Origin: Beroe forskalii
Taxonomy: Eukaryota > Ctenophora > Nuda > Beroida > Beroidae
DNA length: 64,000 bases
Direction: 5' to 3'
Assembly (NCBI GenBank): GCA_011033025.1
Contig: WFMF01000271.1
Location: 124,001 to 188,000 of the forward strand
Of this stretch, positions 673 to 36,122 are shown piece after piece; the first letter of the stretch is position 1, and each line of letters opens with the position of its first letter. A program made the position numbers and the translations under genes. The notes under the pieces were generated by a model. That model worked only from the letters and a program-made list of their open reading frames with translations. It had not been told where the DNA came from and searched no databases.

Positions 673-686
673 GATGGACAGAGGCG

Positions 687-709
687 ATGTTTTACGCGAC
701 GTGGGACAA
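687..709 (+). repeat. element A left terminal inverted repeat
   Basis: 23 bp, perfect reverse complement of 9350-9372. It is followed at once by GTGGCAAAAAAGGGACAAAAG, the same wording as the start of each satellite unit, so the satellite may have grown out of the terminal repeat. Confidence 0.9.
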
Positions 710-3700
710 AAAAGTGGCAAAAAAGGGACAAAAGTCGCCTGAGGCGACGTGGGATTTTAAGGCCTCAAATGTGCTTAATATGAGTTGTTATGGTTAGATA
801 TCATGTTTAAGAGTTGCCAGGCCATCATAGGAGCCACGCCCAACCTTGGGCCACGCCCAACCTTGGGCCACGCCCAACCTTGGGCCACGCCCAAAAATCC
901 CATCTTTCCTGCCAATATGGTGGCAAAAAAGGGACAAGTGTGGACATGGCAATTTCAGCCGATAAATCACTCCAAATCATTTCATTTCGATCTTAAAAGT
1001 TAATTTAGGGTTCCTAGACACTAAATCAACCATTCACAGCCCGTGGCCACGCCCAGATTCCACGCCCCATAAATGCGCGAAAAGTCGCTAGCTGGGTGGC
1101 AAAAGGGACAAAAGTCGCCTGAGGCGACGTGGGATTTTAAGGCCTCAAATGTGCTTAATATGAGTTGTTATGGTTAGATATCATGTTTAAGAGTTGCCAG
1201 GCCATCATAGGAGCCACGCCCAACCTTGGGCCACGCCCAAAAATCCCATCTTTCCTGCCAATATGGTGGCAAAAAAGGGACAAGTGTGGACATGGCAATT
1301 TCAGCCGATAAATCACTCCAAATCATTTCATTTCGATCTTAAAAATTAATTTAGGGTTCCTAGAGACTAAATCAACCATTCACAGCCCGTGGCCACGCCC
1401 AGATTCCACGCCCCATAAATGCGCGAAAAGTCGCTAGCTGGGTGGCAAAAAAGGGACAAAAGTCGCCTGAGGCGACGTGGGATTTTAAGGCCTCAAATGT
1501 GCTTAATATGAGTTGTTATGGTTAGATATCATGTTTAAGAGTTGCCAGGCCATCATAGAAGCCACGCCCAACCTTGGGCTACGCCAAAAAATCCCATCTT
1601 TCCTGCCAATATGGTGGCAAAAAAGGGACAAGTGTGGACATGGCAATATCAGCCGATAAATCACTCCAAATCACTTCATTTCGATCTTAAAAGTTAATTT
1701 AGGGTTCCTAGACACTAAATCAACCATTCACAGCCCGTGGCCACGCCCAGATTCCACGCCCCATAAATGCGCGAAAAGTCGCTAGCTGGGTGGCAAAAAA
1801 GGGACAAAAGTCGCCTGAGGCGACGTGGGATTTTAAGGCTTCAAATGTGCTTAATATGAGTTGTTATGGTTAGATATCATGTTTAAGAGTTGCCAGGCCA
1901 TCATAGGAGCCACGCCCAACCTTGGGCCACGCCCAAAAATCCCATCTTTCCTGCAAATATGGTGGCAAAAAGGGACAAGTGTGGACATGGCAATTTCAGC
2001 CGATAAATCACTCCAAATCATTTCATTTCGATCTTAAAAGTTAATTTAGGTTCCTAGACACTAAATCAACCATTCACAGCCCGTGGCCACGCCCAGATTC
2101 CACGCCCCATAAATGCGCGAAAAGTCGCTAGCTGGGTGTGGGACAAAAGTCGCCTGAGGCGACGTGGGATTTTAAGGCCTCAAATGTGCTTAATATGAGT
2201 TGTTATGGTTAGATATCATGTTTAAGAGTTGCCAGGCCATCATAGGAGCCACGCCCAACCTTGGGCCACGCCCAAAATCCCATCTTTCCTGCCAATATGG
2301 TGGCAAAAAGGGACAAGTGTGGACATGGCAATTTCAGCCGATAAATCACTCCAAATCATTTCATTTCGATCTTAAAAATTAATTTAGGGTTCCTAGAGAC
2401 TAAATCAACCATTCACAGCCCGTGGCCACGCCCAGATTCCACGCCCCATAAATGCGCGAAAAGTCGCTAGCTGCGGCGTGGGGACAAAAGTCGCCTGAGG
2501 CGACGTGGGATTTTAAGGCCTCAAATGTGCTTAATATGAGTTGTTATGGTTAGATATCATGTTTAAGAGTTGCCAGGCCATCATAGGAGCCACGCCCAAC
2601 CTTGGGCCACGCCCAAAAAATCCCATCTTTCCTGCAAATATGGTGGCAAAAAGGGACAAGTGTGGACATGGCAATTTCAGCCGATAAATCACTCCAAATC
2701 ATTTCATTTCGATCTTAAAAGTTAATTTAGGGTTCCTAGACACTAAATCAACCATTCACAGCCCGTGGCCACGCCCAGATTCCACGCCCCATAAATGCGC
2801 GAAAAGTCGCTAGCTGGGTGGCAAAAAGGGACAAAAGTCGCCTGAGGCGACGTGGGATTTTAAGGCCTCAAATGTGCTTAATATGAGTTGTTATGGTTAG
2901 ATATCATGTTTAAGAGTTGCCAGGCCATCATAGGAGCCACGCCCAACCTTGGGCCACGCCCAAAAATCCCATCTTTCCTGCAAATATGGTGGCAAAAAGG
3001 GACAAGTGTGGACATGGCAATTTCAGCCGATAAATCACTCCAAATCATTTCATTTCGATCTTAAAAGTTAATTTAGGGGTTCCTAGACACTAAATCAACC
3101 ATTCACAGCCCGTGGCCACGCCCAGATTCCACGCCCCATAAATGCGCGAAAAGTCGCTAGCTGGGTGGCGTGGACAAAAGTCGCCTGAGGCGACGTGGGA
3201 TTTTATGGCCTCAATTGTGCTTGATATGAGTTGTTATGGTTAGATATCATGTTTAAGAGTTGCCAGGCCATCATAGGAGCCACGCCCAACCTTGGGCCAC
3301 GCCCAAAAATCCCATCTTTCCTGCCAATATGGTGGCAAAAGGGACAAGTGTGGACATGGCAATTTCAGCCGATAAATCACTCCAAATCATTTCATTTCGA
3401 TCTTAAAAGTTAATTTAGGGTTCCTAGACACTAAATCAACCATTCACAGCCCGTGGCCACGCCCAGATTCCACGCCCCATAAATGCGCGAAAAGTCGCTA
3501 GCTGGGTGGCAAAAAGGGACAAAAGTCGCCTGAGGCGACGTGGGATTTTAAGGCCTCAAATGTGCTTAATATGAGTTGTTATGGTTAGATATCATGTTTA
3601 AGAGTTGCCAGGCCATCATAGGAGCCACGCCCAACCTTGGGCCACGCCCAAAAATCCCATCTTTCCTGCCAATATGGTGGCAAAAAAGGGACAAGTGTGG

Positions 3701-6700
3701 ACATGGCAATTTCAGCCGATAAATCACTCCAAATCATTTCATTTCAATATTAAAGGCCAACTGATCATTTCAAGTTTTTCTACAAATGCTTGGAATAACA
3801 TCGTTCATATGAACCATTAAGATTCCGCATATTTTTAGTTTGCATATCTGGACAGAATTGCTGAAAATGGCACATTTAAGAACATGTTGTGACGTAGCAG
3901 GTGGGAGTTTATAGCTTGAAATTACAGGTAAAAATAATTTAGCTATCAAATGTTGGCTTAAGTACTAAAAAATGATAGTAATTAGAAATCGTAATATTTA
4001 TGTTTACTGATCCGAAAATTTGTTTGGATAAAGGATTGAATTACCGCATCGCGTCATCAGAAATTAATTACGACTTAACATGCACCAGCTACAGGCTCTG
4101 GAATGCGGCCCTTTTTACAGTAGTTTGTATTGTGATATCCTTGTTACATGTAGTGATATTTCAGCTTCCTATACTGAGCGCTGTGTGTACAATATATAAT
4201 GCCCGGACTTTGATACATATTATTGATATAGTGTCGGTTTGGCATCAATTATCTCAAAATTTTTTGTAATGATCAGTTGGCCTTTAAAAGTTAATTTAGG
4301 GTTCCTAGACACTAAATCAACCATTCACAGCCCGTGGCCACGCCCAGATTCCACGCCCCATAAATGCGCGAAAGTCGCCATACTGGGTGGCGTGGACAAA
4401 AGTCGCCTGAGGCGACGTGGGATTTAAGGCATATTGTGTTTTTAATATGAGTTGTTATGGTTAGATATCATGTTTAAGAGTTGCCAGGCCATCATAGGAG
4501 CCACGCCCAACCTTGGGCCACGCCCAAAATCCCATCTTTCCTGTAATATGGTGGCAAAAAGGGACAAGTGTGGACATGGAAATTTCAACCGATAAATCAC
4601 TCCAATTCATTTCATTTCGATCTTAAAAGTTAATTTAGGGTTCAGACACTAAATCAACCATTCACAGCCCGTGGCCACGCCCAGATTCCACGCCCCATAA
4701 ATGCGCGAAAAGTCGCTAGCTGGGTGGCAAAAGGGACAAAAGTCGCCTGAGGCGACGTGGGATTTTAAGGCCTCAAATGTGCTTAATATGAGTTGTTATG
4801 GTTAGATATCATGTTTAAGAGTTGCCAGGCCATCATAGGAGCCACGCCCAACCTTGGGCCACGCCCAAAAATCCCATCTTTCCTGCCAATATGGTGGCAA
4901 AAAGGGACAAGTGTGGACATGGCAATTTCAGCCGATAAATCACTCCAAATCATTTCATTTCGATCTTAAAAGTTAATTTAGGGTTCCTAGACACTAAATC
5001 AACCATTCACAGCCCGTGGCCACGCCCAGATTCCACGCCCCATAAATGCGCGAAAAGTCGCTAGCTGGGTGGCAAAAAAGGGACAAAAGTCGCCTGAGGC
5101 GACGTGGGATTTTAAGGCCTCAATTGTGCTTAATATGAGTTGTTATGGTTAGATATCATGTTTAAGAGTTGCCAGGCCATCATAGGAGCCACGCCCAACC
5201 TTGGGCCACGCCCAAAAATCCCATCTTTCCTGCCAATATGGTGGCAAAAAAGGGACAAGTGTGGACATGGCAATTTCAGCCGATAAATCACTCCAAATCA
5301 TTTCATTTCGATCTTAAAAGTTAATTTAGGGTTCCTAGACACTAAATCAACCATTCACAGCCCGTGGCCACGCCCAGATTCCACGCCCCATAAACGCGCG
5401 AAAAGTCGCTAACTGGGTGGCAAAAAAGGGACAAAAGTCGCCTGAGGCGACGTGGGATTTTAAGGCCTCAATTGTGCTTAATATGAGTTGTTATGGTTAG
5501 ATATCATGTTTAAGAGTTGCCAGGCCATCATAGGAGCCACGCCCAACCTTGGGCCACGCCCTAAAAATCCCATCTTTCCTGCCAAGATGGTGGCAAAAAA
5601 AGGACAAGTGTGGACATGGCAATTTCAGCCGATAAATCACTCCAAATCATTTCATTTCGATCTTAAAAGTTAATTTAGGGTTCCTAGACACTAAATCAAC
5701 CATTCACAGCCCGTGGCCACGCCCAGATTCCACGCCCCATAAATGCGCGAAAAGTCGCTAACTGGGTGGCAAAAAAGGGACAAAAGTCGCCTGAGGCGAC
5801 GTGGGATTTTAAGGCCTCAAATGTGCTTAATATGAGTTGTTATGGTTAGATATCATGTTTAAGAGTTGCCAGGCCATCATAGGAGCCACGCCCAACCTTG
5901 GGCCACGCCCAAAAATCCCATCTTTCCTGCCAATATGGTGGCAAAAGGGACAAGTGTGGACATGGAAATTTCAGCCGATAAATCACTCCAATTCATTTCA
6001 TTTCGATCTTAAAAGTTAATTTAGGGTTCCTAGACACTAAATCAACCATTCACAGCCCGTGGCCACGCCCAGATTCCACGCCCCATAAATGCGCGAAAAG
6101 TCGCTAACTGGGTGGCAAAAGGGACAAAAGTCGCCTGAGGCGACGTGGGATTTTAAGGCCTCAATTGTGCTTAATATGAGTTGTTATGGTTAGATATCAT
6201 GTTTAAGAGTTGCCAGGCCATCATAGGAGCCACGCCCAACCTTGGGCCACGCCCAAAAATCCCATCTTTCCTGCCAATATGGTGGCAAAAAAGGGACAAG
6301 TGTGGACATGGCAATTTCAGCCGATAAATCACTCCAAATCATTTCATTTCGATCTTAAAAGTTAATTTAGGGTTCCTAGAGACTAAATCAACCATTCACA
6401 GCCCGTGGCCACGCCCAGATTCCACGCCATCCTAGGAGCCACGCCCAAAAATCCAATCATTCCTGCCAATCAGTGGCAAAAAAGGGACAAGTGCAAACAT
6501 GGCGATTATGGCCGATAAATCACTCAAAATCATTTTCTTTTGATCATAAAAGTTATTTTAGGGTTTCTAGACACTAAATTAACTATTCCCAACCCTTGGC
6601 AATGCCCAGATTCCACGCCCCATAAATGCGCGAAAAGTCGCTAGCTGGGTGGCAAAAAAGGGACAAAAGTCGCCTGAGGTTACGTGGGATTTTAAGGCCC

Positions 6701-7000
6701 TCAAATGTTGATTTTGATGTTGTTATGGTAAGATATCATGCCAGGCCATCATAGAAGCCACACCCAACCTTTTGGGCCACGCCCAAAATCCCTATATTCG
6801 CCAATAAGGTGGCAAAATAACGGACAAGTGTTCATAAATCAGCCGATAACCACTCAAATCATTTCATTTGATCTTGGTTGAGTTAATTTATTGTTCCTAG
6901 ACACTCAATCAACCATTCCCAGCCCGTGGCCACGCCCAGATTAAATGCCCCCTAAATGTGCGAAAAGTCGCTAGCTGGTTGGCAAAAAAGGGAAAAATGT
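710..7000 (+). repeat. satellite array, element A left arm (~345-bp unit, forward)
   Basis: About 17 head-to-tail units of ~345 bp. Each carries the palindrome GTCGCCTGAGGCGAC, several CCACGCCC boxes, and the phrase CTAGACACTAAATCAACC. Units near the switch (6429-7000) are clearly more diverged. The first unit has an 18-bp subrepeat expanded three times at 834-892. Short open frames recur once per unit but are not conserved in length or start and are not genes. The arm carries the CCTTGGGCC variant rather than CCTTGAGCC. Confidence 0.95.
3754..4283. mobile_element. 530-bp piggyBac-like non-autonomous element inside the array
   Basis: The satellite is interrupted by 530 bp flanked by TTAA on both sides (3750-3753 and 4284-4287). 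The ends are inverted repeats beginning AGGCCAACTGATCATT. The uninterrupted satellite has a single TTAA at this point, so the insertion is clean. A TTAA duplication is the mark of piggyBac (and Kolobok) transposition. The 89-codon frame inside does not resemble a transposase. Confidence 0.8.
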
Positions 7001-7012
7001 CGCCTTAAAATC

Positions 7013-8545
7013 CCACGGCGCCTCAGGCGACTTTTGTCCCTTTTTTGCCACCCAGCTAGCGACTTTTCGCGCATTTATGGGGCGTGGAATCTGGGCGTGG
7101 TCACGGGCTGTGAATGGTTGATTTAGTCTCTAGGAACCCTAAATTAACTTTTAAGATCGAAATGAAATGATTTGGAGTGATTAATCGGCTGAAATTGCCA
7201 TGTCCACACTTGTCCTTCTTTTGCCACCATATTGGCAGGAAAGATGGGATTTTGGGCGTGGCTCAAGGTTAAGGGCTCCTATGATGGCCTGGCAACTCTA
7301 AACATGATATCTAACCATAACAACTCATATTAAGCCACGCCCGAGGCCTTAAATCCTACCGTCGCCTCAGGCGACTTTTTTGTCCCTTTTGCCACCCAGC
7401 TAGCGACTTTTCGCGCATTTATGGGGCGTGGCCACGGGCTGTGAATGGTTGATTTAGTGTCTAGGAACCCTAAATTAACTTTTAAGATCGAAATGAAATG
7501 ATTTGGAGTGATTAATATCGGCTGAAATTGCCATGTCCACACTTGTCCCTTTTTTTTGCCACCATATTGGCAGGAAAGATGGGATTTTTGGGCGTGGCTC
7601 AAGGTTAAGGGCTCATGATGGCCTGGCAACTCTTAAAACATGATATCTAACCATAACAACTCATATTAAGCACATTTGAGGCCTTAAAATCCCACGTCGC
7701 CTCAGGCGACTTTTTGTCCCTTTTTGCCACCCAGTTAGCGACTTTTCGCGCATTTATGGGGCGTGGAATCTGGGCGTGGCCACGGGCTGTGAATGGTTGA
7801 TTTAGTGTCTAGGAACCCTAAATTAACTTTTAAGATCGAAATGAAATGATTTGGAGTGATTTAGGGGCCATCCATAAAGGACGTCCGCAAAATTTCGGCC
7901 ATTTTAGACCCTTCCCTCCCCCCTTGTCCGCAAACGTCCGCATTTCAGAAACCCCTCCCCCTCCCAGGACGTCCGCATTTTTCTTAAAAATCTTTTGAGT
8001 CATCATTCTGGGCCCGAAATTTCACGATTTTCTAGTGAAATAAACGTCAAAACGACCGAAATTTCCATAAACTGCGGACGTCCGCATTTGGCCAAACACC
8101 CCCCTCCCCCCTATGTCTACAAACGTCCGCATTGGCCAGACTCCCCCCTCCCCCCTCGCTGCGGACGTCCTTTATGGATGGCCCCTTATCGGCTGAAATT
8201 GCCATGTCCACACTTGTCCCTTTTTGCCACCATATTGGCAGGAAAGATGGGATTTTTGGACGTGGCTCAAGGTTGGGCGTGGCTCCTATGATGGCCTGGC
8301 AACTCTTAAACATGATATCTAACCGTAACAACTCATATTAAGCACATTTGAGGCCTTAAAATCCCACGTCGCCTCAGGCGACTTTTGTCCCTTTTTTGTC
8401 ACACAGCTAGCTACTTTTCGCGCATTTATGGGGCTCGGAATCTGGGCGACGGGCGTGGCACGGGCTGGGAATGTCCCTCTTTTGCCACCACTTGTCCCTC
8501 TTTTGCCATCAGATTGGCAGGGAAAATGGGATTTTCGCTTTTCGG
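7013..8545 (-). repeat. satellite array, element A right arm (inverted)
   Basis: Units of the same satellite in reverse orientation (GTCGCCTCAGGCGACTTTTGTCCC reading on the plus strand). They carry the CTCAAGG (CCTTGAG in sense) variant, unlike the left arm. The last unit, 8385-8545, is degenerate. Confidence 0.92.
7864..8185. mobile_element. MITE with 3-bp TTA duplication (PIF/Harbinger-like)
   Basis: 322 bp with inverted ends GGGGCCATCCATAAAGGACG, inserted in a satellite unit between duplicated TTA at 7861-7863 and 8186-8188; removing it restores the normal GATTTATCGG of the unit. Pyrimidine-rich interior with repeated CGTCCGCA. A second copy in the opposite orientation lies at 23059-23348. 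Confidence 0.85.
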
Positions 8546-8599
8546 GTGTGGCTCATATCAAGCAAATTTGAGGTGTCAAAATCTTATGTTGCCTCGGGC

Positions 8600-9349
8600 C
8601 ACCTGACTCAGATTAACTGAATTTGGGTCAAAAGTTGCATATCGGCTTAATTTGATTATGGATATTGGATAAGTAGGTCCCTTTATATTTTTTTACATCT
8701 TGGCAGATCAATATGGGATTTGAGTTGCTTAGCAAGGTATGGCTTAGCAGCCATGGTGACCGACAAGGCAAAATATGTAGAAACGATATCTTAACAACGC
8801 ATTTGAGACCTATTTCCCCCATGAAACATTTGCCTTCATCTTTGCCTCTCGACTGGGAATGGTGCTTATTCTCAATTAACTTCAAATTAATGTCATCGTA
8901 ATACATAATACTTTGATAATGTATCCCATCTTCAGGCTGAAATTGAGGCTCTTCTCACCTTCAAATCGGGCAGTCAAAGTGGGGCCGAATTAAAGGCCTG
9001 ATTAAAGCATCTACCTACGCGATTACGAGATAATAGTTAGAACAAGAACAACAACTTTATAAAAATTCGAGTTACTGGAATTGTCTTAATGACCGGTTAT
9101 AATGGCTCGAAGATTAGAAGGCAATTTTAGACTTTGCTGATGAAAAGGTCGGCTGAATTCAAACAAATCAAAGACAATTGACAACTTTAGCAACTAACAA
9201 TGATTATGAACGTGTCAAACTAATTGATGTAAATCGCTTCAACGAGATAGTAAATCATTCACCATTTTGTGTGCGTTCATGGGAGGAAATTGCACATGTT
9301 CACGCGCGCGCGACGCGCGCATTTGGAGTGCCGAAATTTGCGGCGCGGC
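8600..9349 (+). other. element A subterminal 'edge' sequence
   Basis: Single-copy sequence between the right arm and the right terminus. It is repeated at 35480-36093 (element B, with a ~130-bp internal deletion near the end) and, reverse-complemented, at 45894-46430 (element C). Landmarks are the phrase CTTGGCAGATCAATATGGGA and the CGCGCGCG run at 9302-9321. Confidence 0.85.
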
Positions 9350-9372
9350 TTGTCCCACGTCGCGTAAAACAT
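9350..9372 (-). repeat. element A right terminal inverted repeat
   Basis: Perfect reverse complement of 687-709. The match to elements B (36094-36116, one mismatch) and C (45871-45893, perfect) continues outward to GTTCTG and then stops, marking the true end of the element. Confidence 0.9.
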
Positions 9373-9386
9373 GTTCTGGATGGACA

Positions 9387-12292: not shown

Positions 12293-15200
12293 TCATGATT
12301 CCTTCGAGCTATGAGATTCTTCTGAAGGATCGTCCAAGAAACTATCAAAATTTCTGATATTGTTGGAATAAGCTGCCTCTTTTTCGTTTCGTTTTTCCCG
12401 GTAGTTACACCACAGCGGATGAGGGATGGGAGATGAAGCGAGTTTACACGAAATTGAGTTGTTGTTCAGTTCAGCAAACTCAGAAAGTTTGGGGAAAGTG
12501 TCCTCTTTTAGGATTGTGTCAACTGTAAATATCCTGAAATATTTTCTTTTTATTGTTGGAAGCAATGAAAATAATATTCATGAGGAAAATGTTGTTGTAT
12601 TATTAAACCCCGCACGGATATGGGTTCACTTTCCATCACAGCATTATCAACACAGCTTTTAAAGAACAACTCCAAGAGTAGTCTAGATACTAGATCACCA
12701 CTGACTTACGTTCCTTTCCAGATCTTGTCCACACCGCTTTCCGTTCTCATTTCCTGGTAATGAGGGAACTGCCGTGTCCCCAGACTTCCAATGTTCTTTA
12801 CCACACCCCCTTCGCTCCATATCACCTCACAAAACTGCCGTAGAACTCTCCTGTATCCTTCCTGAGGAGGGGAAAATAACATATCAGTGTTGTATCAGAC
12901 TATCAGATAGACAGGACAAGGATAATTTATTAACTGCACACCGATAATACTGACATGCCGAACAATAGTTAAAGATCAAATGGAATCCCGTGCATATTAT
13001 GGAATGTTAATACGAAGTTTGGAGTGGTTTTGAGTACTTTGGACTATTTAGAAACTATTTAGACGTGGCGACAATTTTTATTTCAATGTCGCCACCCATT
13101 TTGGGCCACGCCCATTTTTGGCACTTTGCGCATGGCCCAAAAATCGAAAAACTAGAATGAATCCCTGTATAGCCCATGTGTTACATCGATTTTATGGTAA
13201 ATTGACCCGAGAAACACGATGCAACCAACGTTTTTGCTCTCCGAGGTTCCTGTCAGGAGATAAGGTGACCACGCCCACTTTTTGGCCTTGTGCGAAGGCT
13301 GATTTTCGAGAGATATAACTTTCATGGAATGAGTACCATGTGATACATCAAACTTGTAGTTAATTGACCCGAGAAACACGATGCAACCCACTATTTTGCT
13401 CTCCGAGGCTCCTGTCAGCAGATAAGGTGACCACGCCCACTTTTTGGCCTTGCGCGAAGGCTGATTTTCGAGAGATATAACTTTCATGGAATGAGTGGTA
13501 TGCGATACATCAAATTTATGGTAAATCGACCTGAGAAACACGATGCAACCAACGATTTTTTACTCCTCGACTCTCGAGGCTCCTTTCAGGAAATAAGATG
13601 ACCACACCCACTTTACGGGCGCGTGTAATTTTTCAATGAAACCTATAAGAAACAAGAAACCAACCTTTTTGAAGTCCTGAACGGCCCTCTCATAGTCCTG
13701 AATGACCCTCTCACAGTCCTGAAAGACCCTATCATGTTCCTGAAAGACCCTTTCATAGTCCTGAACGACCCTATCACGTTCCTCAAAGACCCTATCACAG
13801 TCCTGAACGACCCTATCACGTTCCTGAAAGACCCTATCACAGTCCTGAACGACCCTCTCATAGTCCTGAATGACCCTTTCACAGTCCTGAACAACCCTCT
13901 CACAGTCCTGAAAGACCCTTTCACAGTCCTGAACGACCCTATCATGTTCCTGAACGACCCTATCACGGTCCTGAACGACCCTCTCGCAGTCCTGTACGAC
14001 CCTTTCGCAGTCCTAAACAACCCTTTCGCAGTCCTAAACAACCCTCTCACAGTCCTGAAAGACTCTTTCACAGTCCTGAACGACCCTATCATGTTCCTGA
14101 ACGACCCTTTCACAGTCCTGAACGACCCTATCACAGTCCTGTACGACGCTCTGAAGTCCTGAACGACCCTTGCACTCCCCTGAACGACCCTTGAAAGACC
14201 CTCTAATGCTCCTAAATGACTCTCTTACACTCCTGATTCCACTTACACACCTACGAGCAACCTTCATACACCCTCGCCCTATGAAGCTATGACATGCATT
14301 TGCAACCATATTGCGCTCATGATAAAACTCCTGAGAAACCCTCTCACACTCCTGAACAACCCTCTCACAGTCCTGGAAGATCATCTCACAGTCCTGAATG
14401 ACCCTCTTACAGTACTGCACGACCTTCTCACACTCCTGAACGATCTTCTCACAGTCTGAGCGATCCTTTCACAGTCCTGAACGACCCTCTCACAGTCCTC
14501 ACCAGTCAAACTTTCAAGATCGTTCAGGACTGTGAGAGGGTCGTTCAGGACTGTGAGAGGGGCGTTCAGGAATATGAGATGGTCGTGCAGGAGAGTGAGA
14601 GGGTCGTTCAGGACTGCGAGAGGGTAGTTCAGGACTTTGAGAGGGTCGTCAGGACTGTGAGAGGATCGTTCAGGAGTGTGAGAGGGTTGTTCAGGACTGT
14701 GAGAGGGTTGTTCAGGACTATGAAAGGGTTGTTCAGGACTGTGAGGGTTGTTCAGGAATGTGAGAGGTTCGTGCAGGAGTATGAGAAGATCGTTCAGGAC
14801 TGTGAGAGGGTTGTTTAGGACTGTGAGAGGGTTATTCAGGACTATGAAAGGGTTGTTCAGGACTGTGAGAGGGCCGTTCAGGACTGTGAGAGGGTTGTTT
14901 AGGACAGTAAGAGGGTCGTGCAGGAGTGTGAGAGGGTTATTCAGGACTATGAAAGGGTTGTTCAGGACTGTGAGAGGGCCGTTCAGGACTGTGAGAGGGT
15001 TGTTTAGGACAGTAAGAGGGTCGTGCAGGAGTGTGAGAGGGTTATTCAGGACTATGAAAGGGTTGTTCAGGACTGTGAGAGGGCGTTTAGGACTGTGAGA
15101 GGGTTGTTTAAGACTGTGAGAGGGTTGTTCAGGACTATGAAAGGGTTGTTCAGGAGTGTGCGAAGATCGTTCAGGACTGTGAGCGTGGTCACCTCATCTG

Positions 15201-16838
15201 CTAACAGGAGCCTCGGAGAGCAAAATAGTGGGTTGCATCGTGTTTCTCGGGTCAATTAACTACAAGTTTGATGTATCACATGGTATTCATTCCATGAAAG
15301 TTATATCTCTCGAAAATCAGCCTTTGCGCAAGGCCAAAAAGTGGGCGTGGTCACCTTATCTGCTGACAGGAGCCTCGGAGAGCAAAATAGTGGGCTGCAT
15401 CGTGTTTCTCGGGTCAATTAACTACAAGTTTGATGTATCACATGGTACTCATTCCATGAAAGTTATATCTCTCGAAAATCAGCCTTCGCGCAAGGCCAAA
15501 AAGTGGGCGTGGTCACCTTATCTCCTGACAGGAGCCTCGGAGAGCAAAATAGTGGGTTGCATTGTGTTTCTCGGGTCAATTTACTACAATATTGATGTAT
15601 CACATGGTACTCATTCCATGAAAGTTATATCTCTCGAAAATCAGCCTTTGCGCAAGGCCAAAGAGTGGGCGTGGTCACCTTATCTCCAGACAGGAACATC
15701 GGAGAGCAAAAACGTTGGTTGCATCGTGTTTCTCAGGTCAATTTACCATAAAATCGATGTAACACATGGGCTATATAGGGATTCATTCTAGTTTTTCGAT
15801 TTTTAAATATGCGCAAAGTGCCAAAAATGGGCGTGGCCCAAAATGGGTGGCAACATTGAAATAAAAATTGTCGCCACGTCTAAATAGTTTCTAAATAGTT
15901 CAGTAGTAAAAATTGTCTCAACTTCATTAACATATCATATGCAATGGATAGTCGACTATTGATTTTTGGATTGTTATCGTTTATTCATTTTTCTATTCTA
16001 CAATTGAAGCCGAGTCGTTTGAATGACGTTTGATTCGATGAACATTTGGAAATCGAAAACTGAAATTTTCAGTTTTCGATTTCCAGTGGTTCATTCGAGA
16101 ATAGCGGGCGTCTGTCGAACCTAGATTCCAAAATGACTCGGCTAACTACCGCCATAGAGTTGGTAGGTGGAATGAGTAAACGCATTGTAGTCAAAGATCA
16201 AATGGTCGATATCAAAATCCCGTGCATATGGAATGTTAATACGAAGTTGGGACTGGTTTTGGCTACTTTATGAATGGGACACGGTGCCGCATTTGGGCCA
16301 TTTAGAGGATTTCAGTGAAATCCTCTAAATGGCCCAAATTAAATGCGGCACCGTGTCCCATTCATAAAGTCCCGTCGATCGACGGAGCGCGCAGCACGCG
16401 CAAACGTGAATTGAAATTGTCTTCAAATAAAAGCCCCATTTTCAGAAGACCGTTTTGAGTGGCAAATTCGTGAACAAAAGCGGGAAACACGACCTTAATT
16501 TGCAACCTACCCCTCAAACATCACCAATTCTGTTAGGGATCCACTGGACCGCTTGATAAAAGAGATCAGGAATAGAAAATAAGAAACTGCTACGGAATTA
16601 CTGCCAATCATGGAGTCAACATGAATCGCCCTGGTGGTTCAAACCTTATTCTGGCCACGCAAAGAAAAACGAATCTCTACCATTACGAAGCAACCAATGA
16701 TGAAAAACTTCATAAAACTTGGTTGCAAAACTAATTTAGCATTTAACTCGGGGAAAATAGTTCAATTGAAATGTATAAAATGAAAAGACTTACTTTGTTG
16801 AGAACTTTGGTAGTCAGCAGCACTTCATGTTTAGGCAT
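12293..16838 (-). CDS. mrps6: mitochondrial small ribosomal subunit protein bS6m (MRPS6), three exons
   Basis: Exons (minus) 16794-16838, 12710-12861 and 12293-12533 join in frame into a ~145-residue protein. Exon 1 starts MPKHEVLLTTKVLNK, matching the MPRYELALIL start of the bS6 family. Exon 2 carries YRRVLRQFCEVIWSEGGVV and NIGSLGTRQFPHY, the second-strand and loop region (family: ...GAIVRDLENLGERALPYR). Exon 3 continues KGTIFTVDTIL, equivalent to the GGYFLVDFY strand, and ends with an acidic tail (FLDDPSEESHSSKES). bS6m binds 12S rRNA with bS18m in the mitoribosome platform. All donors (GTAAGT) and acceptors are canonical. Intron 1 (12862-16793) contains element D, the flanking direct repeats and the hairpin at 16265-16370. 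Identity rests on my memory of the family, without a search. Confidence 0.85.
12963..13040 (+). repeat. ~78-bp direct repeat, left copy flanking element D
   Basis: Nearly the same sequence (phrases AAAGATCAAATGG, TGGAATGTTAATACGAAG, TGGTTTTG) recurs in the same orientation at 16190-16268, just outside the other side of element D. Confidence 0.8.
13645..14510 (+). repeat. 21-bp minisatellite, element D left half
   Basis: About 40 copies of a 21-bp unit, diverged by point changes. Because 21 is divisible by 3, frames stay open and read as 7-residue repeats on either strand; these are not genes. Confidence 0.9.
14519..15185 (-). repeat. 21-bp minisatellite, element D right half (inverted)
   Basis: The same 21-bp unit in reverse orientation (GTTCAGGACTGTGAGAGGGTC). 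A higher-order duplication is visible, with a block of several units repeated from ~14835 to ~15080. Confidence 0.9.
16048..16084. repeat. 37-bp perfect hairpin
   Basis: GGAAATCGAAAACTGAAA pairs with its complement ending 16084. Weaker outer pairing (GCCGAGTC at ~16009, GACTCGGC at ~16135) suggests a small MITE of about 135 bp. Confidence 0.7.
16190..16268 (+). repeat. ~78-bp direct repeat, right copy flanking element D
   Basis: Partner of 12963-13040. It runs directly into the hairpin at 16265-16370. Confidence 0.8.
16265..16370. repeat. 106-bp almost perfect inverted repeat
   Basis: Starts ACTTTATGAATGGGACACGG and ends with its exact complement; the only interruptions are a few bases (TAAAT versus T) in the right arm and a short apex. 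A transcript would fold into a long dsRNA hairpin. It lies in mrps6 intron 1, close to exon 1, and most likely is a foldback MITE. Confidence 0.85.
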
Positions 16839-22244: not shown

Positions 22245-25200
22245 ATGGGTGATTTTGCTTTAGATGAAACGGCTCTGCCTATGGCTAATGCTTATAATAA
22301 GCAGATTGAAGAGCAGGTATGTACAAACCACTTATTCTGTATAAATATTATTTTATAAATTCGACTAAGTATATAACTGTGGTGCATGCGATGAATCGAT
22401 TGTCAAAAAAGCCATTGCATGGTGCAGTGCAGCAGTGATCAAAAGAATCAGAATTCGCTATTTGCTACCGTAACATATCTGTTACTTAAATATCTGGTAC
22501 TTTTATTGATCAATACAAACAGTCAAGACATTATTTGCATGAGTCCATCCTGGCAATTCAAAGCAGTACTATCATAGCCTACAAAGGAGGGTGCCTGATA
22601 TTGATGACATTAAAAAATTAGCCCTGCATTTAGTTATTATTTCAATTCTACTTGTAGGGCAGGTTACTATTTTCAACTCCTTACAGGTAAAGTTGAAGGA
22701 CAGTGAGCTGTATGGGATTGATTCTGACATCAAGGAGAAAAGAGCTCGCGTGGAAGCTATGTCAGAGCACATGAAGAATGTGCAACAAGAACTGAGCATC
22801 ACCCAGAACCTTGTCGCTGCCAGGTTGAAGGAGATAGAGTCCGAGGACCATCTGAGGATGCTGTCAGAGAGGGAGCAGGGCAGGATCAATCTGCAGGTGA
22901 AGCGGAAGAATGTCGAGATTGGAGAGATAAAAGAAAGACAAAACACCCATGAGAACAACATGTTCAGGTACACTCAGAAGATCGAGCAGATCAAGCAACA
23001 GATGAAATGGAGTCAAAAGGTAATTACTAATGACTTTATGACCTTATCTTTTACTTAAGGGGCAATCCAATAAGGGTGTCCACAATGAAGGGGGAGTCTG
23101 GCCGATTCGGACGTTTGCGGACATAGGAAATTAGGGGCCAAGTGCAGACGCCCATGGTTACGGAAATTTTGGTCGATTTGACGGGTATTTCACTAGAAAA
23201 TTATGAAATTTTGTGCCCAAAATCGATGACTGAATATAGTTTTAGAGGGGGAAGGGAGGGGCTCATGGAATGCGGACGTTCGCGGACAAGGGGGAAGGAA
23301 GGGTCTAGAATGGTCGAAATTTTGCGGACGTCCTTAATGGATGACCCCTAAGATAATTTGGTCTTAAATTCACTATTTTTGTGATATGTAAGATTTTCAA
23401 AAACTTCTATTTTCATGATAGATACTAAAACACAAAACTCACTATCTCTTAATTTTCAGGAGCTAGAGGAGTGGCTAGAAGAAGCTTCTCATAGAGATGA
23501 AGATGCCATGACTCTCATGAAGTACACGAAGATTGATGACGCCAAAGTCAAGGTTTTACTTTTATGCAATCTATCTGTTTATCTATTTAATGATCAGTAG
23601 ATTGCACTGTGGAACTAACTTCTTGTTATCAAAGCAATAAAATCATGAGGTACGTCATTCTCCATCACATTCCCTCAGGAATTGACACTGAAACTGGAAA
23701 AGTTGACTGAGGAACGCGGGAAGAAGAACAAGATGCTAGAAAACGAAGTGACGAACACCCTGACTACACAGATATTTAGGATATTTCCCATGATTTTGTT
23801 AGGTCAACAAACTAAATTTTCAAATAGAGATTAGAGGTAGAGTACTTTAGCAACACGGATATCATCAGAACCTCAGTTTGAATGTATAAAGGAGTGTTGT
23901 AAAGTTTCAAGAGCATTTAATTAATGGTTGAATCTGGGTAAATCAGTGTTAATGCAAGGTGTTGTCTGAGTAAATTATTTGTACTGTTAAGTGATGTCAG
24001 GGTAAAGTAACGTCGGACGTGTAAAGTTGTGTCAGTGTATCGGTAAAAGTGGTGTCAGGGTAAAGCAGCGTCGGACGTGTAAAGTGGTGTCAGGGTATCG
24101 GTAAAAGTGGTGTCAGGGTAAAGTAGCGTCGGTTGTGTAAAGTGGTGTCAGGGTATCGGTAAAAGTTGTGTCGAGGTAAAAGTAGTGGTGTCATATCGGT
24201 GTGGTGTCAGGGTAAAGTAGCGTCGGATGTGTAAAGTGGTGTCAGGGTATCGGTAAAAGTGGTGTCAGGGTAAAGTAGCGTCGGATGTTTAAAGTGGTGT
24301 CAGGGTATCGGTAAAAGTGGTGTCAGGGTAAAGTAGCGTCGGATGTGTAAAGTGGTGTCAGGGTATCGGTAAAAGTGGTGTCAGGGTAAAGTAGCGTCGG
24401 ATGTGTAAAGTGGTGTCAGGGTATCGGTAAAAGTGGTGTCAGGGTAAAGTAGCCTCGGATGTGTAAAGTGGTGTCAGGGTATCGGTAAAAGTGTCGTCAG
24501 GGTAAAGTAGCGTCGAATGTGTAAAGTGGTGTCACGGTATCGGTAAAAGTGGTGCCAGGGTAAAGTAGCGTCGGATGTGAATGGTAAAAGTGGTGTCTGG
24601 GTAAATAGTGTCAGATGTGTAAAGTGGTGTCGGGGTATCGGTAAAAGTGGTGTCAGGGTAAAGTAGCGTCGGTTATGTAAAGTGGTGTCAGGGTATCGGT
24701 AAAAGTGGTGCCAGGGTAAAGTAGCGTCGGGTGTGTAAAGTGGTATCAGGGTATCGGTAAAAGTGGTGCCAGGGTAATTAAGTAGCGTCGGTTATGTAAA
24801 GTGGTGTCAGGGTATCGGTAAAAGTGGTGTCAGGGTAAAGTAGCGTCGGATGTTTAAAGTGGTGTCAGGGTATCGGTGAAAGTGGTGTCAGGGTAAAGTA
24901 GTGTCAGTTATGTAAAGTGGTGTCAGGGTATCGGTAAAAGTGGTGTCAGGGTAAAGTAGCGTTAGATATGTAAAGTGGTGTCAGGGTATCGATAAAGTGG
25001 TGTCAGGGTAAAGTAGCGTCGGTTATGTAAAGTGGTGTCAGGGTATCGATAAAAGTGGTGTCAGGGTAAAGTAGCGTCGGATGTGTAAAGTGATGTCAGG
25101 GTATCGGCAAAAGTGGTGTCAGGGTAAAGTAGCGTCGGTTGTGTAAAGTGGTTTCAGGGTATCGGTTAAAGTGGTGTCAGGGCAAAATGGTTCATGGAAA

Positions 25201-26185: not shown

Positions 26186-26494
26186 GTAAGTTTCAAATAA
26201 GTTATTGTTCTGAGTCTCCCAGTACTTTGGTGGCAAAGTTTGAGCAGTTTTTGCCCTGATGACGAGAAATCTTATTCTCAAAATGTATCAGTAGAAAAGA
26301 GAATACACTTCATGGATACAATACATATCATCTGTACAGAAATACAAGTAAGCAAGAACAGGTTTGCTCCAGGTTTATAATAATTGCGTTAATATGCCTC
26401 TTGATATTATAAACGTGCGAGATATTGCACTAATATGTAAGAATATGCTTCTTGATGATGTTACAGTACAACCCTTCAAGACGACGTGGGACAA

Positions 26495-29400
26495 AAAAGG
26501 GACAAAAAAGGGACAAAAGTCGCTTGAGGCGACGCGGGATTTTAAGGCCTCAAATGTGCTAAAGCCGATAAATCACTCCAAAATCATTTCATTTCGATCT
26601 TAAAAGTTAATTTAGGGTTCCTAGAGACTAAATCAACCATTCACAGCCCGTGGCCACGCCCAGATTCCACGCCCCATAAATGCGCGAAAAGTCGCTAGCT
26701 GGGTGGCAAAAGGGACAAAAAGTCGCCTGAGGCGACGTGGGATTTTAAGGCCTCAAATGTGCTTAATATGAGTTGTTATGGTTAGATATCGTGTTTAAGA
26801 GTTGCCAGGCCATCATAGGAGCCACGCCCAAAAATCCCATCTTTCCTGCCAATATGGTGGCAAAAAGGGACAAGTGTGGACATGGAAATTTCAGCCGATA
26901 AATCACTCCAATTCATTTCATTTCGATCTTAAAAGTTAATTTAGGGTTCCTAGAGACTAAATCAACCATTCACAGCCCGTGGCCACGCCCAGATTCCACG
27001 CCCCATAAATGCGCGAAAAGTCGCTAACTGGGTGGCAAAAGGGACAAAAGTCGCCTGAGGCGACGTGGGATTTTAAGGCCTCAAATGTGCTTAATATGAG
27101 TTGTTATGGTTAGATATCATGTTTAAGAGTTGCCAGGCCATCATAGGAGCCACGCCCAACCTTGGGCCACGCCCAAAATCCCATCTTTCCTGCCAATATG
27201 GTGGCAAAAAAGGGACAAGTGTGGACATGGCAATTTCAGCCGATAAATCACTCCAAATCATTTCATTTCGATCTTAAAAGTTAATTTAGGGTTCCTAGAC
27301 ACTAAATCAACCATTCACAGCCCGTGGCCACGCCCAGATTCAACGCCCCATAAATGCGCGAAAAGTCGCTAGCTGGGTGGCAAAAAAGGGACAAAAAGTC
27401 GCCCGAGGCGACGTGGGATTTTAAGGCCTCAAATGTGCTTAATATAAGTTGTTATGGTTAGATATCATGATTAAGAGTTGCCAGGCCATCATAGGAGCCA
27501 CGCCCAACCTTGGGCCTCGCCCAAAAATCCCATCTTTCCTACCAATATGGTGGCAAAAAAGGGACAAGTGTGGACATGGCAATTTCAGCCGATAAATCAC
27601 TCCAAATCATTTCATTTCGATCTTAAAAGTTAATTTAGGGTTCCTAGACACTAAATCAACCATTCACAGCCCGTGGCCACGCCCAGATTCCACGCCCCAT
27701 AAATGCGCGAAAAGTCGCTAGCTGGGTGGCAAAAAGGGACAAAAGTCGCCTGAGGCGACGTGGGATTTTAAGGCCTCAAATGTGCTTAATATGAGTTGTT
27801 ATGGTTAGATATCATGTTTAAGAGTTGCCAGGCCATCATAGGAGCCACGCCCAACCTTGGGCCACGCCCAAAAATCCCATCTTTCCTGCCAATATGGTGG
27901 CAAAAGGGACAAGTGTGGACATGGAAATTTCAGCCGATAAATCACTCCAAATCATTTCATTTCGATCTTAAAAGTTAATTTAGGGTTCCTAGAGACTAAA
28001 TCAACCATTCACAGCCCGTGGCCACGCCCAGATTCCACGCCCCATAAATGCGCGAAAAGTCGCTAGCTGGGTGGCAAAAGGGACAAAAGTCGCCTGAGGC
28101 GACGTGGGATTTTAAGGCCTCAAATGTGCTTAATATGAGTTGTTATGGTTAGATATCATGTTTAAGAGTTGCCAGGCCATCATAGGAGCCACGCCCAACC
28201 TTGGGCCACGCCCAAAAATCCCATCTTTCCTGCCAATATGGTGGCAAAAAAGGGACAAGTGTGGACATGGCAATTTCAGCCGATAAATCACTCCAAATCA
28301 TTTCATTTCGATCTTAAAAGTTAATTTAGGGTTCCTAGAGACTAAATCAACCATTCACAGCCCGTGGCCACGCCCAGATTCCACGCCCCATAAATGCGCG
28401 AAAAGTCGCTAGCTGGGTGGCAAAAAGGGACAAAAGTCGCCTGAGGCGACGTGGGATTTTAAGGCCTCAAATGTGCTTAATATGAGTTGTTATGGTTAGA
28501 TATCATGTTTAAGAGTTGCCAGGCCATCATAGGAGCCACGCCCAACCTTGGGCCACGCCCAAAAATCCCATCTTTCCTGCCAATATGGTGGCAAAAGGGA
28601 CAAGTGTGGACATGGAAATTTCAGCCGATAAATCACTCCAAATTCATTTCATTTCGATCTTAAAAGTTAATTTAGGGTTCCTAGAGACTAAATCAACCAT
28701 TCACAGCCCGTGGCCACGCCCAGATTCCACGCCCCATAAATGCGCGAAAAGTCGCTAACTGGGTGGCAAAAAGGGACAAAAGTCGCCTGAGGCGACGTGG
28801 GATTTTAAGGCCTCAATTGTGCTTAATATGAGTTGTTATGGTTAGATATCATGTTTAAGAGTTGCCAGGCCATCATAGGAGCCACGCCCAACCTTGGGCC
28901 ACGCCCAAAAATCCCATCTTTCCTGCCAATATGGTGGCAAAAAAGGGACAAGTGTGGACATGGCAATTTCAGCCGATAAATCACTCCAAATCATTTCATT
29001 TCGATCTTAAAAGTTAATTTAGGGTTCCTAGAGACTAAATCAACCATTCACAGCCCGTGGCCACGCCCAGATTCCACGCCCCATAAATGCGCGAAAAGTC
29101 GCTAGCTGGGTGGCAAAAAAAGGGACAAAAGTCGCCTGAGGCGACGTGGGATTTTAAGGCCTCAAATGTGCTTAATATGAGTTGTTATGGTTAGATATCA
29201 TGTTTAAGAGTTGCCAGGCCATCATAGGAGCCACGCCCAACCTTGGGCCACGCCCAAAAATCCCATCTTTCCTGCCAATATGGTGGCAAAAAGGGACAAG
29301 TGTGGACATGGAAATTTCAGCCGATAAATCACTCCAAATTCATTTCATTTCGATCTTAAAAGTTAATTTAGGGTTCCTAGAGACTAAATCAACCATTCAC

Positions 29401-32400
29401 AGCCCGTGGCCACGCCCAGATTCCACGCCCCATAAATGCGCGAAAAGTCGCTAACTGGGTGGCAAAAGGGACAAAAGTCGCCTGAGGCGACGTGGGATTT
29501 TAAGGCCTCAAATGTGCTTAATATGAGTTGTTATGGTTAGATATCATGTTTAAGAGTTGCCAGGCCATCATAGGAGCCACGCCCAACCTTGGGCCACGCC
29601 CAAAAATCCCATCTTTCCTGCCAATATGGTGGCAAAAAGGGACAAGTGTGGACATGGCAATTTCAGCCGATAAATCACTCCAAATCATTTCATTTCGATC
29701 TTAAAAGTTAATTTAGGGTTCCTAGACACTAAATCAACCATTCACAGCCCGTGGCCACGCCCAGATTCCACGCCCCATAAATGCGCGAAAAGTCGCTAGC
29801 TGGGTGGCAAAAAAGGGACAAAAGTCGCCTGAGGCGACGTGGGATTTTAAGGCCTCAAATGTGCTTAATATGAGTTGTTATGGTTAGATATCATGTTTAA
29901 GAGTTGCCAGGCCATCATAGGAGCCACGCCCAACCTTGGGCCACGCCCAAAAATCCCATCTTTCCTGCCAATATGGTGGCAAAAAGGGACAAGTGTGGAC
30001 ATGGAAATTTCAGCCGATAAATCACTCCAATTCATTTCATTTCGATCTTAAAAGTTAATTTAGGGTTCCTAGAGACTAAATCAACCATTCACAGCCCGTG
30101 GCCACGCCCAGATTCCACGCCCCATAAATGCGCGAAAAGTCGCTAGCTGGGTGGCAAAAAAGGGACAAAAGTCGCCTGAGGCGACGTGGGATTTTAAGGC
30201 CTCAAATGTGCTTAATATGAGTTGTTATGGTTAGATATCATGTTTAAGAGTTGCCAGGCCATCATAGGAGCCACGCCCAACCTTGGGCCACGCCCAAAAA
30301 TCCCATCTTTCCTGCCAATATGGTGGCAAAAAAGGGACAAGTGTGGACATGGCAATTTCAGCCGATAAATCACTCCAAATCATTTCATTTCGATCTTAAA
30401 AGTTAATTTAGGGTTCCTAGACACTAAATCAACCATTCACAGCCCGTGGCCACGCCCAGATTCCACGCCCCATAAATGCGCGAAAAGTCGCTAACTGGGT
30501 GGCAAAAGGGACAAAAGTCGCCTGAGGCGACGTGGGATTTTAAGGCCTCAAATGTGCTTAATATGAGTTGTTATGGTTAGATATCATGTTTAAGAGTTGC
30601 CAGGCCATCATAGGAGCCACGCCCAACCTTGGGCCACGCCCAAAATCCCATCTTTCCTGCCAATATGGTGGCAAAAGGGACAAGTGTGGACATGGCAATT
30701 TCAGCCGATAAATCACTCCAAATCATTTCATTTCGATCTTAAAAGTTAATTTAGGGTTCCTAGAGACTAAATCAACCATTCACAGCCCGTGGCCACGCCC
30801 AGATTCCACGCCCCATAAATGCGCGAAAAGTCGCTAGCTGGGTGGCAAAAAGGGACAAAAGTCGCCTGAGGCGACGTGGGATTTTAAGGCCTCAAATGTG
30901 CTTAATATGAGTTGTTATGGTTAGATATCATGTTTAAGAGTTGCCAGGCCATCATAGGAGCCACGCCCAACCTTGGGCCACGCCCAAAAATCCCATCTTT
31001 CCTGCCAATATGGTGGCAAAAAGGGACAAGTGTGGACATGGCAATTTCAGCCGATAAATCACTCCAAATCATTTCATTTCGATCTTAAAAGTTAATTTAG
31101 GGTTCCTAGAGACTAAATCAACCATTCACAGCCCGTGGCCACGCCCAGATTCCACGCCCCATAAATGCGCGAAAAGTCGCTAACTGGGTGGCAAAAGGGA
31201 CAAAAAGTCGCCTGAGGCGACGTGGGATTTTAAGGCCTCAAATGTGCTTAATATGAGTTGTTATGGTTAGATATCATGTTTAAGAGTTGCCAGGCCATCA
31301 TAGGAGCCACGCCCAACCTTGGGCCACGCCCAAAATCCCATCTTTCCTGCCAATATGGTGGCAAAAAGGGACAAGTGTGGACATGGCAATTTCAGCCGAT
31401 AAATCACTCCAAATCATTTCATTTCGATCTTAAAAGTTAATTTAGGGTTCCTAGACACTAAATCAACCATTCACAGCCCGTGGCCACGCCCAGATTCCAC
31501 GCCCCATAAATGCGCGAAAAGTCGCTGAAATATGGGTGGCAAATGTGGGACAAAAAGTCGCCTGAGGCGACGTGGGATTTTAAGGCCTCAAATGTGCTTA
31601 ATATGAGTTGTTATGGTTAGATATCATGTTTAAGAGATCTTAAAAAGGAGGCCATCATAAATCAGCCATTCCCAACCTTGAGATTCCACGCCCAAAATCC
31701 CATCTTTCCTGCCAAAATGGTGAGGCGAAAGTTTGGACAAATGGAAATTTCAGCCGATAAATCACTCCAAATCATCCCATTCCGATCCAAAAGTTAATTT
31801 AGGGTTCCTAAACACTAAATCAACCATTCACAGCCATTCATAAGCCCATTCCAGATTCCGCCCCATAAATGCGCGAAAAGTCGCTAGCTGGGTGGCAAAG
31901 GACAAAAGTCGCCTGAGGCGACGTGGGATTTTAAGGCCTCAAATGTGCTTAATATGAGTTGTTATGGTTAGATATCATGTTTAAGAGTTGCCAGGCCATC
32001 ATAGGAGCCACGCCCAACCTTGGGCCACGCCCAAAATCCCATCTTTCCTGCCAATATGGTATGTGGACATGGAAATTTCAGCCGATAAATCACTCCAAAT
32101 CATTTCATTTCGATCTTAAAAGTTAATTTAGGGTTCCTAGACACTAAATCAACCATTCACAGCCCGTGGCCACGCCCAGATTCCACGCCCCATAAATGCG
32201 CGAAAAGTCGCTAGCTGGGTGGCAAAAGGGACAAAAGTCGCCTGAGGCGACGTGGGATTTTAAGGCCTCAAATGTGCTTAATATGAGTTGTTATGGTTAG
32301 ATATCATGTTTAAGAGTTGCCAGGCCATCATAGGAGCCACGCCCAAAAATCCAATCATTCCTGCCAATCAGTGGCAAAAAAGGGACAAGTGCAAACATGG

Positions 32401-32590
32401 CGATTTCGGCCGATAAATCACTCCAAATCATTTCATTTCGATCTTGAAAGTTAATTTATTGTTCCTAGACACTCAATCAACCATTCCCAGCCCGTGGCCA
32501 CGCCCAGATTACATGCCCCATAAATGTGCGAAAAGTCGCTAGCTGGTTGGCAAAAAAGGGAAAAATGTCGCCTGAGGCGACATGGGATTT
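26495..32590 (+). repeat. satellite array, element B left arm (forward)
   Basis: About 19 units of ~345 bp, most of them nearly identical, with the CCTTGGGCC variant. Units alternate between subtypes (GGCAATTTCAGCC with AATCATTTC versus GGAAATTTCAGCC with AATTCATTTC) from ~26870 to 30060, which suggests a ~690-bp higher-order period. Confidence 0.93.
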
Positions 32591-32599
32591 TAAGGCCTC

Positions 32600-35480: not shown

Positions 35481-36122
35481 TGCCACCTGACTCAGATTAA
35501 CTGAATCGGCTAAATTGGATTATGGATATTAGATAAGTAGGTCAGTTACTTTTTTACATCTTGGCAGATCAATATGGGATTTGAGTTGTTTAGCAAGGTA
35601 TGGCTTAGCAGCCATGGTGACCGACAAGGCAAAATATGTAGACACGATATCTTAACAACGCATTTGAGACCTATTTCCCCCTTGAAACATTTGCCTTCAT
35701 CTTTGCCTCTCGACTGGGAATGATGCTTATACTCAATTATTGTCAAATTACTGTCATCGTACATGATACTATGATAATGTATCCCATCTTCAGGCTGAAA
35801 TTGTGGCTATTCTCACCTTCGGATCGGGCAGTTAAAGTGGGGGCGATTTAAAGGCCATTAAAGCATCTACCTACGCGATTACGAGTTAATAGTTAAAACA
35901 AGAACTACAACTTTATAAAAATTCGAGTTACTGGAATCGTCTAAATGACTGGTTATAATGGCTCGAAGATTAGAAGGCAATTTTAGACTTTGGTTGGATG
36001 AAAAAGGTCGGCTGAATTCAAAACAAATCAAAGACAATTGACAAAGCAACTAACAAAGCAACTAACAATGATTATGAACTAGTGCGGCGCGGCTTGTCCC
36101 AAGTCGCGTAAAACATGTTCTG

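Follow-up and report, generated by a model that had tools for sequence, protein, structure and literature searches.

A satellite DNA that very probably travels as the arms of foldback-type transposons in the genome of Beroe forskalii

The window, i.e. the whole 64-kb stretch of DNA that was analyzed, corresponds to positions 124001-188000 of contig C327 of the host genome (label G000), for which 216 Mb in 1134 contigs were searched. It contains element A, at positions 681-9378, and two further copies, with the following features.

673-680, no strand: left target-site duplication GATGGACA, same as 9379-9386
681-686, plus strand: hexamer GAGGCG at the left terminus, which the right hexamer does not repeat in inverted form
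687-709, plus strand: left copy of the core ATGTTTTACGCGACGTGGGACAA, with 0 expected in shuffles
725-6989, plus strand: forward satellite arm of 348-bp units, 14 of them near-full (TRF, blastn map, and unit count)
3754-4283, no strand: short inverted-repeat element nested in the forward arm, with TTAA on either side, interrupting the array (ends read)
7041-8535, minus strand: inverted satellite arm (blastn map)
7864-8185, no strand: second nested short inverted-repeat element, with TTA on either side, interrupting the array (ends read)
8536-9349, minus strand: unique right-hand block (comparison among copies)
9350-9378, minus strand: right copy of the core and right hexamer, CAGAAC when read inward (core match and flank test)
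9379-9386, no strand: right target-site duplication GATGGACA, same as 673-680
26480-36122, plus strand: second copy in the window, right end intact, left end truncated within the core
45865-53411, minus strand: third copy in the window, intact right end at 45865, left portion missing from a point within a satellite unit

The earlier note had described a satellite array with precise ends, and at element A this was confirmed. The 23-bp core is present in inverted orientation at the two ends with 23/23 bp identical, and the 8-bp duplication outside the element is exact. When a 20-bp core was searched for with up to three mismatches, it occurred four times in the window, vs 0.00 times expected from 100 shuffles. 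Because the terminal hexamers of element A, GAGGCG on the left and CAGAAC on the right, are different and not mutually inverted, the inverted core is subterminal. As assessed by TRF, the element contains 348-bp units at 867-3754 and 4284-6428, and inverted units of ~335 bp at 7002-7861. Other repeats are also found in the window. In a different foldback element at 13043-15899, tandem repeats of 162 bp and 21 bp form mirror images about ~14510, and the outer ends (ACTATTTAGAAACTATTTAGACGTGGCGAC) are perfectly inverted. In a third, at 37791-39969, repeats of 100 bp and 20 bp are mirrored, again with inverted outer ends (AATGGGGGTGGCAAGTT). Neither of the two has matching 8-bp flanks. A 58-bp minisatellite (AAGTGGTGTCAGGGTAAAGTAGCGTCGG...) of ~1.2 kb, at 23989-25186, lies where the sequence is strongly G-skewed.

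The ends of element A recur throughout the genome, in which the earlier note had proposed to search for them. Allowing up to three mismatches in 22 bases, the core of what we named family A gave 73 matches (37 forward and 36 reverse), vs one forward and no reverse match for the reversed core in the same genome. Forty-three of these ends begin with CATG (right type), 29 with GATG (left type), and one with TATG. There is one exception among the right-type ends, at C725:459904, which begins with CATG and leads into satellite. The hexamer GAGGCG directly precedes the core at 29 family-A ends, and at 24 ends of the related family B described below. The 73 ends include 15 facing left/right pairs, and the sequences of all 15 were examined. 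Exact 8-bp duplications flank nine of the 15, the match being exact at 8 bp and failing at every length of 9-12 bp, and when flanks were compared across pairs none of 210 combinations matched at 8/8 (the best had two mismatches). The proposal that other copies would carry such duplications therefore held for nine pairs and failed for six (L041, L042, L051, L044, L045/46, and L047). In L041 and L042, the right hexamer is altered. L051 combines a left end of A1 type with a right end of A2 type, part of a further end abuts its right flank, and from its sequence it looks like an A1/A2 chimera. In L044, which has a doubled left end, L045/46, and L047, both hexamers are intact and the flanks are unmatched.

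Two arrangements of ends were observed in addition. At G000:C203:771480-771540, two A2 elements (L040 and L041) lie side by side, the second beginning 1 bp past the duplication of the first. On contig C445, one left and one right end of A3 type (L074 and L075, at C445:27553 and C445:173676) are 146 kb apart with their bodies facing away from each other, and their flanks have the 8-mer CAACCTAT in common. This is most simply explained by two pieces that were broken at the element and put in the wrong order, and it may alternatively reflect a circle, a tandem duplication, or an alternative-ends transposition.

Family B was found with a right-end search allowing up to three mismatches, which gave 123 matches, about 100 of them listed. 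Its ends have GGGAC where family A has GCGAC. There are 26 exact right ends and 24 exact left ends, forming 17 facing pairs, 13 of which were tested for duplications (C351, C580, C980, and C1024 were left out). The 8-bp duplication is exact in 11 of the 13 and matches at 7/8 in the remaining two, and none of 156 cross-pair comparisons had fewer than three mismatches. When families A and B are combined, 20 of the 28 pairs tested have an exact 8-bp duplication, two more match at 7/8, and six have none. A third relative, C35, has a 325-bp repeat and inverted ends that show no difference in the 100 bp compared; its flanks show no duplication, the right flank being itself a short tandem repeat. As a separate observation, a broken coding-like stretch lies between the arms of one family-B element (L131, ~4900-5915; G000:C325). 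By eye we take it to resemble the end of a non-LTR reverse transcriptase, and a Pfam scan of three pieces of it gave no match.

Empty sites were searched for in the genome using as query the joined flanks of an insertion with one 8-mer kept, for 19 insertions (eight of family A and 11 of family B). In a first round with the eight family-A insertions, the best 40 of 553 candidates were scored. Matches that cross the junction at full length or nearly so were found for four of them, at least one each for L039 (99%) and L048 (97%) and at least 19 each for L049 and L052. In a second round, with longer flanks for A, L043, L050, and L053 and with the 11 family-B insertions, the best 40 of 436 candidates were scored. 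These included at least 11 full-length empty-site matches for C179, at least one for C325b, and only matches with length changes for C211. One empty site was aligned for each of the six clean cases. Each contains exactly one 8-mer and no element sequence at the junction, with 159/161, 155/160, 160/163, 156/161, 91/92, and 90/92 positions alike. These six empty sites are paralogous or allelic. For the other 13 insertions, none was found among the candidates scored; for A, L043, L050, and L053, the best 40 of 436 included nothing beyond the flanks of the insertions themselves, apart from one partial match for L050 that does not cross the junction. Empty sites, which the earlier note had proposed to look for in related individuals, were thus found in this genome for six of 19 insertions, each with a single 8-mer, and not for element A itself. 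Insertion of the element is shown by the duplications and the empty sites.

Long family-A copies consist, in order, of the left end, a satellite arm, an inverted satellite arm, a block of ~0.85 kb, and the right end, and the same order is seen in the two family-B copies that were read, with units of ~172 bp. The ends do not fall at random positions relative to the satellite, a possibility that the earlier note had raised against itself, since in 13 of the 15 family-A pairs the array begins 44-46 bp from the left end (the exceptions are L044 and L051). The number of near-full units per arm ranges from 1 to 24. The first 500 bp of the right blocks are 0.74-0.98 identical among the 15 copies compared, and a 16th right block, in L052, is interrupted by an insertion. 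When one family-A and one family-B right end were folded, the hairpins had z values of -1.75 and -2.03, which are not strong enough to build on.

Both families can be related through their units. In alignments to the family-B unit, the 348-bp unit scores 100 with its second half (maximum of 21.5 in 200 shuffles) and 70.5 with its first half (shuffle maximum 18.0), and the two halves align to each other with a score of 32.0 (shuffle maximum 24.5). The family-A unit can therefore be read as a dimer, now diverged, of monomers like the B unit. Unit identity is 0.960-0.962 within one arm and 0.946 between different A1 elements. The nearest neighbor of a monomer lies in the same element for 80 of 191 monomers, with 14% expected at random within the subfamily, and in another element for 111, suggesting that the arrays are partly homogenized in place and largely common to copies. 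The latter is as expected if arrays travel ready-made. We also considered a descent of units according to their position, counted from the left end, which is at best weak, since the mean difference in unit index is near random (5.8 vs 6.4 at random for A1, and 2.8 vs 3.4 for A2).

Could this be an ordinary satellite, spread by unequal exchange or extrachromosomal circles, with the ends and duplication of element A coincidental? Two of the three arrays in the window do lack an end, and the 111 monomers nearest to a unit of another element would also fit such spreading. It is nevertheless extremely improbable considering that exact duplications are found at 20 of 28 pairs and at none of the 210 and 156 cross pairs, that the distance from the left end to the array is fixed in 13 of 15 family-A pairs, and that the six clean empty sites are enough to refute it. 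Both families have the features of class II elements, i.e. inverted ends, a target duplication of constant length, and empty sites with one copy of the target, and that of foldback elements, i.e. long inverted arms of tandem repeats. We are therefore highly confident that element A represents a foldback-type transposon of class II, non-autonomous and with satellite DNA making up both of its long arms. The central claim of the earlier note, that the satellite moves within a foldback-type DNA transposon, is upheld by the genome-wide ends, the 8-bp duplications, the empty sites, and the fixed position of the ends; from the duplications and empty sites in particular, it follows that the satellite travels as the arms of the element.

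The ends and the satellite have a sequence signature in common. The family-A unit contains GTCGCC-TGA-GGCGAC, a palindrome of the inner end pentamer GCGAC. With a motif expression that was written after the sequences had been seen and admits no base other than G or C at the position tested, the palindromes agree with the end pentamer GCGAC in 130/134 cases for A1, 74/74 for A2, and 6/6 for A3; where the ends have GGGAC, the palindromes are GTCCC...GGGAC, in 13/13 cases for family B and 11/11 for C35. Elsewhere in the family-A satellite, GGGAC is frequent too (in A1, 439 GCGAC and 320 GGGAC), and the contrast between the two pentamers is therefore limited to the palindrome. A second position behaves less regularly. 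A1 satellites have GCGACGTGGGA in 128/133 cases, like A1 left ends; A2 satellites have ATGTCGCC in 158/158, with GCGACATG at A2 ends; and in A3 copies the satellites have GCGACATGGGA (7 cases), like A3 right ends. Among the 11 A1 right ends, six have GTGGGAC, four TTGGGAC, and one ATGGGAC, with GTGGGA in 128/133 satellites (the overlap of L045 and L046 is counted twice in the A1 motif counts). Co-variation at this GTG/ATG position is weakened, with 5/11 A1 right ends deviating from the satellite.

The co-variation of ends and satellite rests on three lineages, and across these three it fits amplified transposase-binding sites; concerted change of a duplicated sequence would give the same pattern. 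The binding-site reading has precedent because repeats inside the ends of Galileo bind transposase, in the experiments described in PMC3688188, and because the authors describing Tetris proposed that its TIR-220 repeats likewise do so (PMC4079207). Judging from the common motif and its co-variation, the arms here probably offer extra transposase-binding sites, by analogy with Galileo. There is a competing view in which the satellite is unimportant for movement, having arisen by duplication of terminal sequence, with gene conversion maintaining the similarity. For Tetris, a 37-bp match led the authors to infer an origin of this kind (PMC4079207), and L051 has both end types with no satellite match, although it has no duplication and looks chimeric. 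On the other side, the motif varies in step with the end across three families, and the Galileo repeats do bind transposase as described (PMC3688188). We regard an unimportant satellite as a serious possibility that falls a little short of probable. The strongest form of the binding-site reading, in which the satellite is an amplified recognition array whose units co-evolve with the ends under selection by the transposase, and in which an entire satellite lineage (172-bp monomer and 348-bp dimer) diversified inside transposons, is put forward only tentatively, as the sequences might suggest it.

The enzyme that would mobilize these elements was sought in the copies and in the genome. The earlier note had suggested that a full-length copy with a transposase between such ends might be found, and none turned up in the copies examined. 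ORF pieces judged by eye, from the non-satellite segments of the copies, the C35 relative, and one larger family-B copy, contained no transposase gene, nor did a Pfam scan of 18 longer ORF pieces from copies detect one; two more pieces in that scan, 20 in all, were host exons at C296. The sole Pfam match within a copy was VEGF_C, with an E value of 0.0063, below its cut-off. An 8-bp duplication had originally been taken to hint at the hAT or P superfamily. The right end of the element starts with CAG, as do many hAT ends, and hAT elements have the target consensus nTnnnnAn. Only two of the 21 duplications scored (the 20 pairs plus the C445 pair) fit this consensus, and the 21 have no target consensus of their own. 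A domain search of the genome gave 23 hAT matches, all at least 25 kb from listed ends or on contigs without one, leaving none within 10 kb. The P-type profile PF21787 gave no match in this genome or in any control genome, and neither did the KDZ (Zisupton) profile PF18758. The hint at hAT or P is not supported, and we consider an enzyme of either superfamily rather unlikely.

Mutator duplications span roughly 8-11 bp, usually 9, and have no consensus; those of families A and B show no consensus but are consistently 8 bp long. The genome contains 46 MULE matches, only one of which (on C296) is within 10 kb of listed ends. It was considered as a partner of the element and rejected. The satellite there ends at ~181143 and is followed, before the MULE, by a glutaminase exon (PF04960, E value 1.3e-17) and ankyrin exons. 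The MULE itself (L129, ~3291-4679) is a Phantom-like FLYWCH-MULE with a broken frame, within a perfect and unrelated 32-bp inverted repeat built of short GGTCATCTGGCCTAAC-like tandem motifs. Because host exons intervene and it has an inverted repeat of its own, it is a separate insertion. Among the enzymes considered we lean to a Mutator-type transposase (Phantom, with FLYWCH and MULE domains), since asymmetric terminal motifs are a feature of Tm1, whose description includes asymmetric 7-bp motifs lying beyond the inverted repeat, arms that contain repeats, and duplications of 8-10 bp that follow no consensus (PMC3169594). The 46 MULE matches, one of them a FLYWCH-MULE in a perfect inverted repeat, are in line with this assignment. 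The duplications, at 8 bp and not mostly 9, and the unrelated nature of the only nearby MULE are not, and we consider it plausible without being quite probable.

FB, Galileo, and TU had been named as the closest known plan. TU elements of sea urchins resemble element A in their foldback plan and 8-bp duplications, and differ in their arms, which consist of ~15-bp repeats rather than a 348-bp satellite. Helentrons and Helitrons are not known to have terminal inverted repeats or target duplications; families A and B have both, and are therefore not assigned to that group. Satellite-carrying Helentrons are, however, described in Crassostrea gigas, in which satellite-like arrays are dispersed by a mobile element, as here (PMC7492417). 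The nearest plan among the descriptions found is that of Tetris rather than TU, with Tetris and Galileo both close precedents. Tetris of Drosophila virilis, described together with DAIBAM, is likewise a non-autonomous foldback element with variable numbers of satellite-like tandem repeats in its arms, a short stretch common to the outer end and the repeat, and no transposase found by its authors (PMC4079207). By description rather than by sequence comparison, it differs in its repeat of ~220 bp (vs 348 and 172 bp here), its duplications of 8-10 bp (vs 8 bp), and a flanking domain in both inverted ends (PMC4079207), where the families here have such a block on the right only; a further difference is the arm of 24 near-full units seen here.

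Galileo, of the P superfamily, also has long, internally repetitive ends, one subfamily containing variable numbers of ~210-bp repeats (PMC3688188, PMC3573991). Its repeats are described as containing multiple transposase-binding sites (PMC3688188), and it has chimeric copies with unmatched flanks (PMC3573991), as are seen among family A. Its duplications are 7 bp and its transposase is of P type (PMC3688188, PMC3573991), in contrast to the 8 bp and the absence of any P match in our genome search. Tm1, a Mutator/foldback element of root-knot nematodes, resembles element A in the differing short terminal motifs outside its inverted repeat, the tandem motifs in its arms, and duplications without consensus (PMC3169594). 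Unlike element A, it is described with a ~14-bp motif and no satellite, mostly 9-bp duplications, and a known element encoding a putative transposase (PMC3169594), none being found in the copies examined here. No description of families A and B was found in the literature searched, subscription journals lying mostly outside it.

In the mechanism that we propose, a transposase encoded elsewhere would recognize both ends and excise the element, which would then reinsert at 8-bp staggered cuts, giving rise to the 8-bp duplications. The satellite would be carried along as part of the element. The widely varying number of units per arm could arise by unequal exchange or slippage, and the unit palindrome GTCGCC-TGA-GGCGAC, as a copy of the inner end motif, probably provides the arms with additional binding sites.

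Taken together, the duplications, the empty sites, and the related families within one genome document the spread of a satellite as transposon arms. Element A (14+2 units) and L040 (13+1) keep perfect duplications. Arrays of 14-16 units (~5-6 kb) with perfect duplications bear on the idea, put forward for Tetris, that transposition suffers when an array is large, unless these arrays grew after insertion. The co-variation of ends and satellite makes it possible to ask by a simple binding test why the arms of foldback elements turn repetitive, and if the satellite is indeed an amplified recognition array, transposition would drive satellite turnover.
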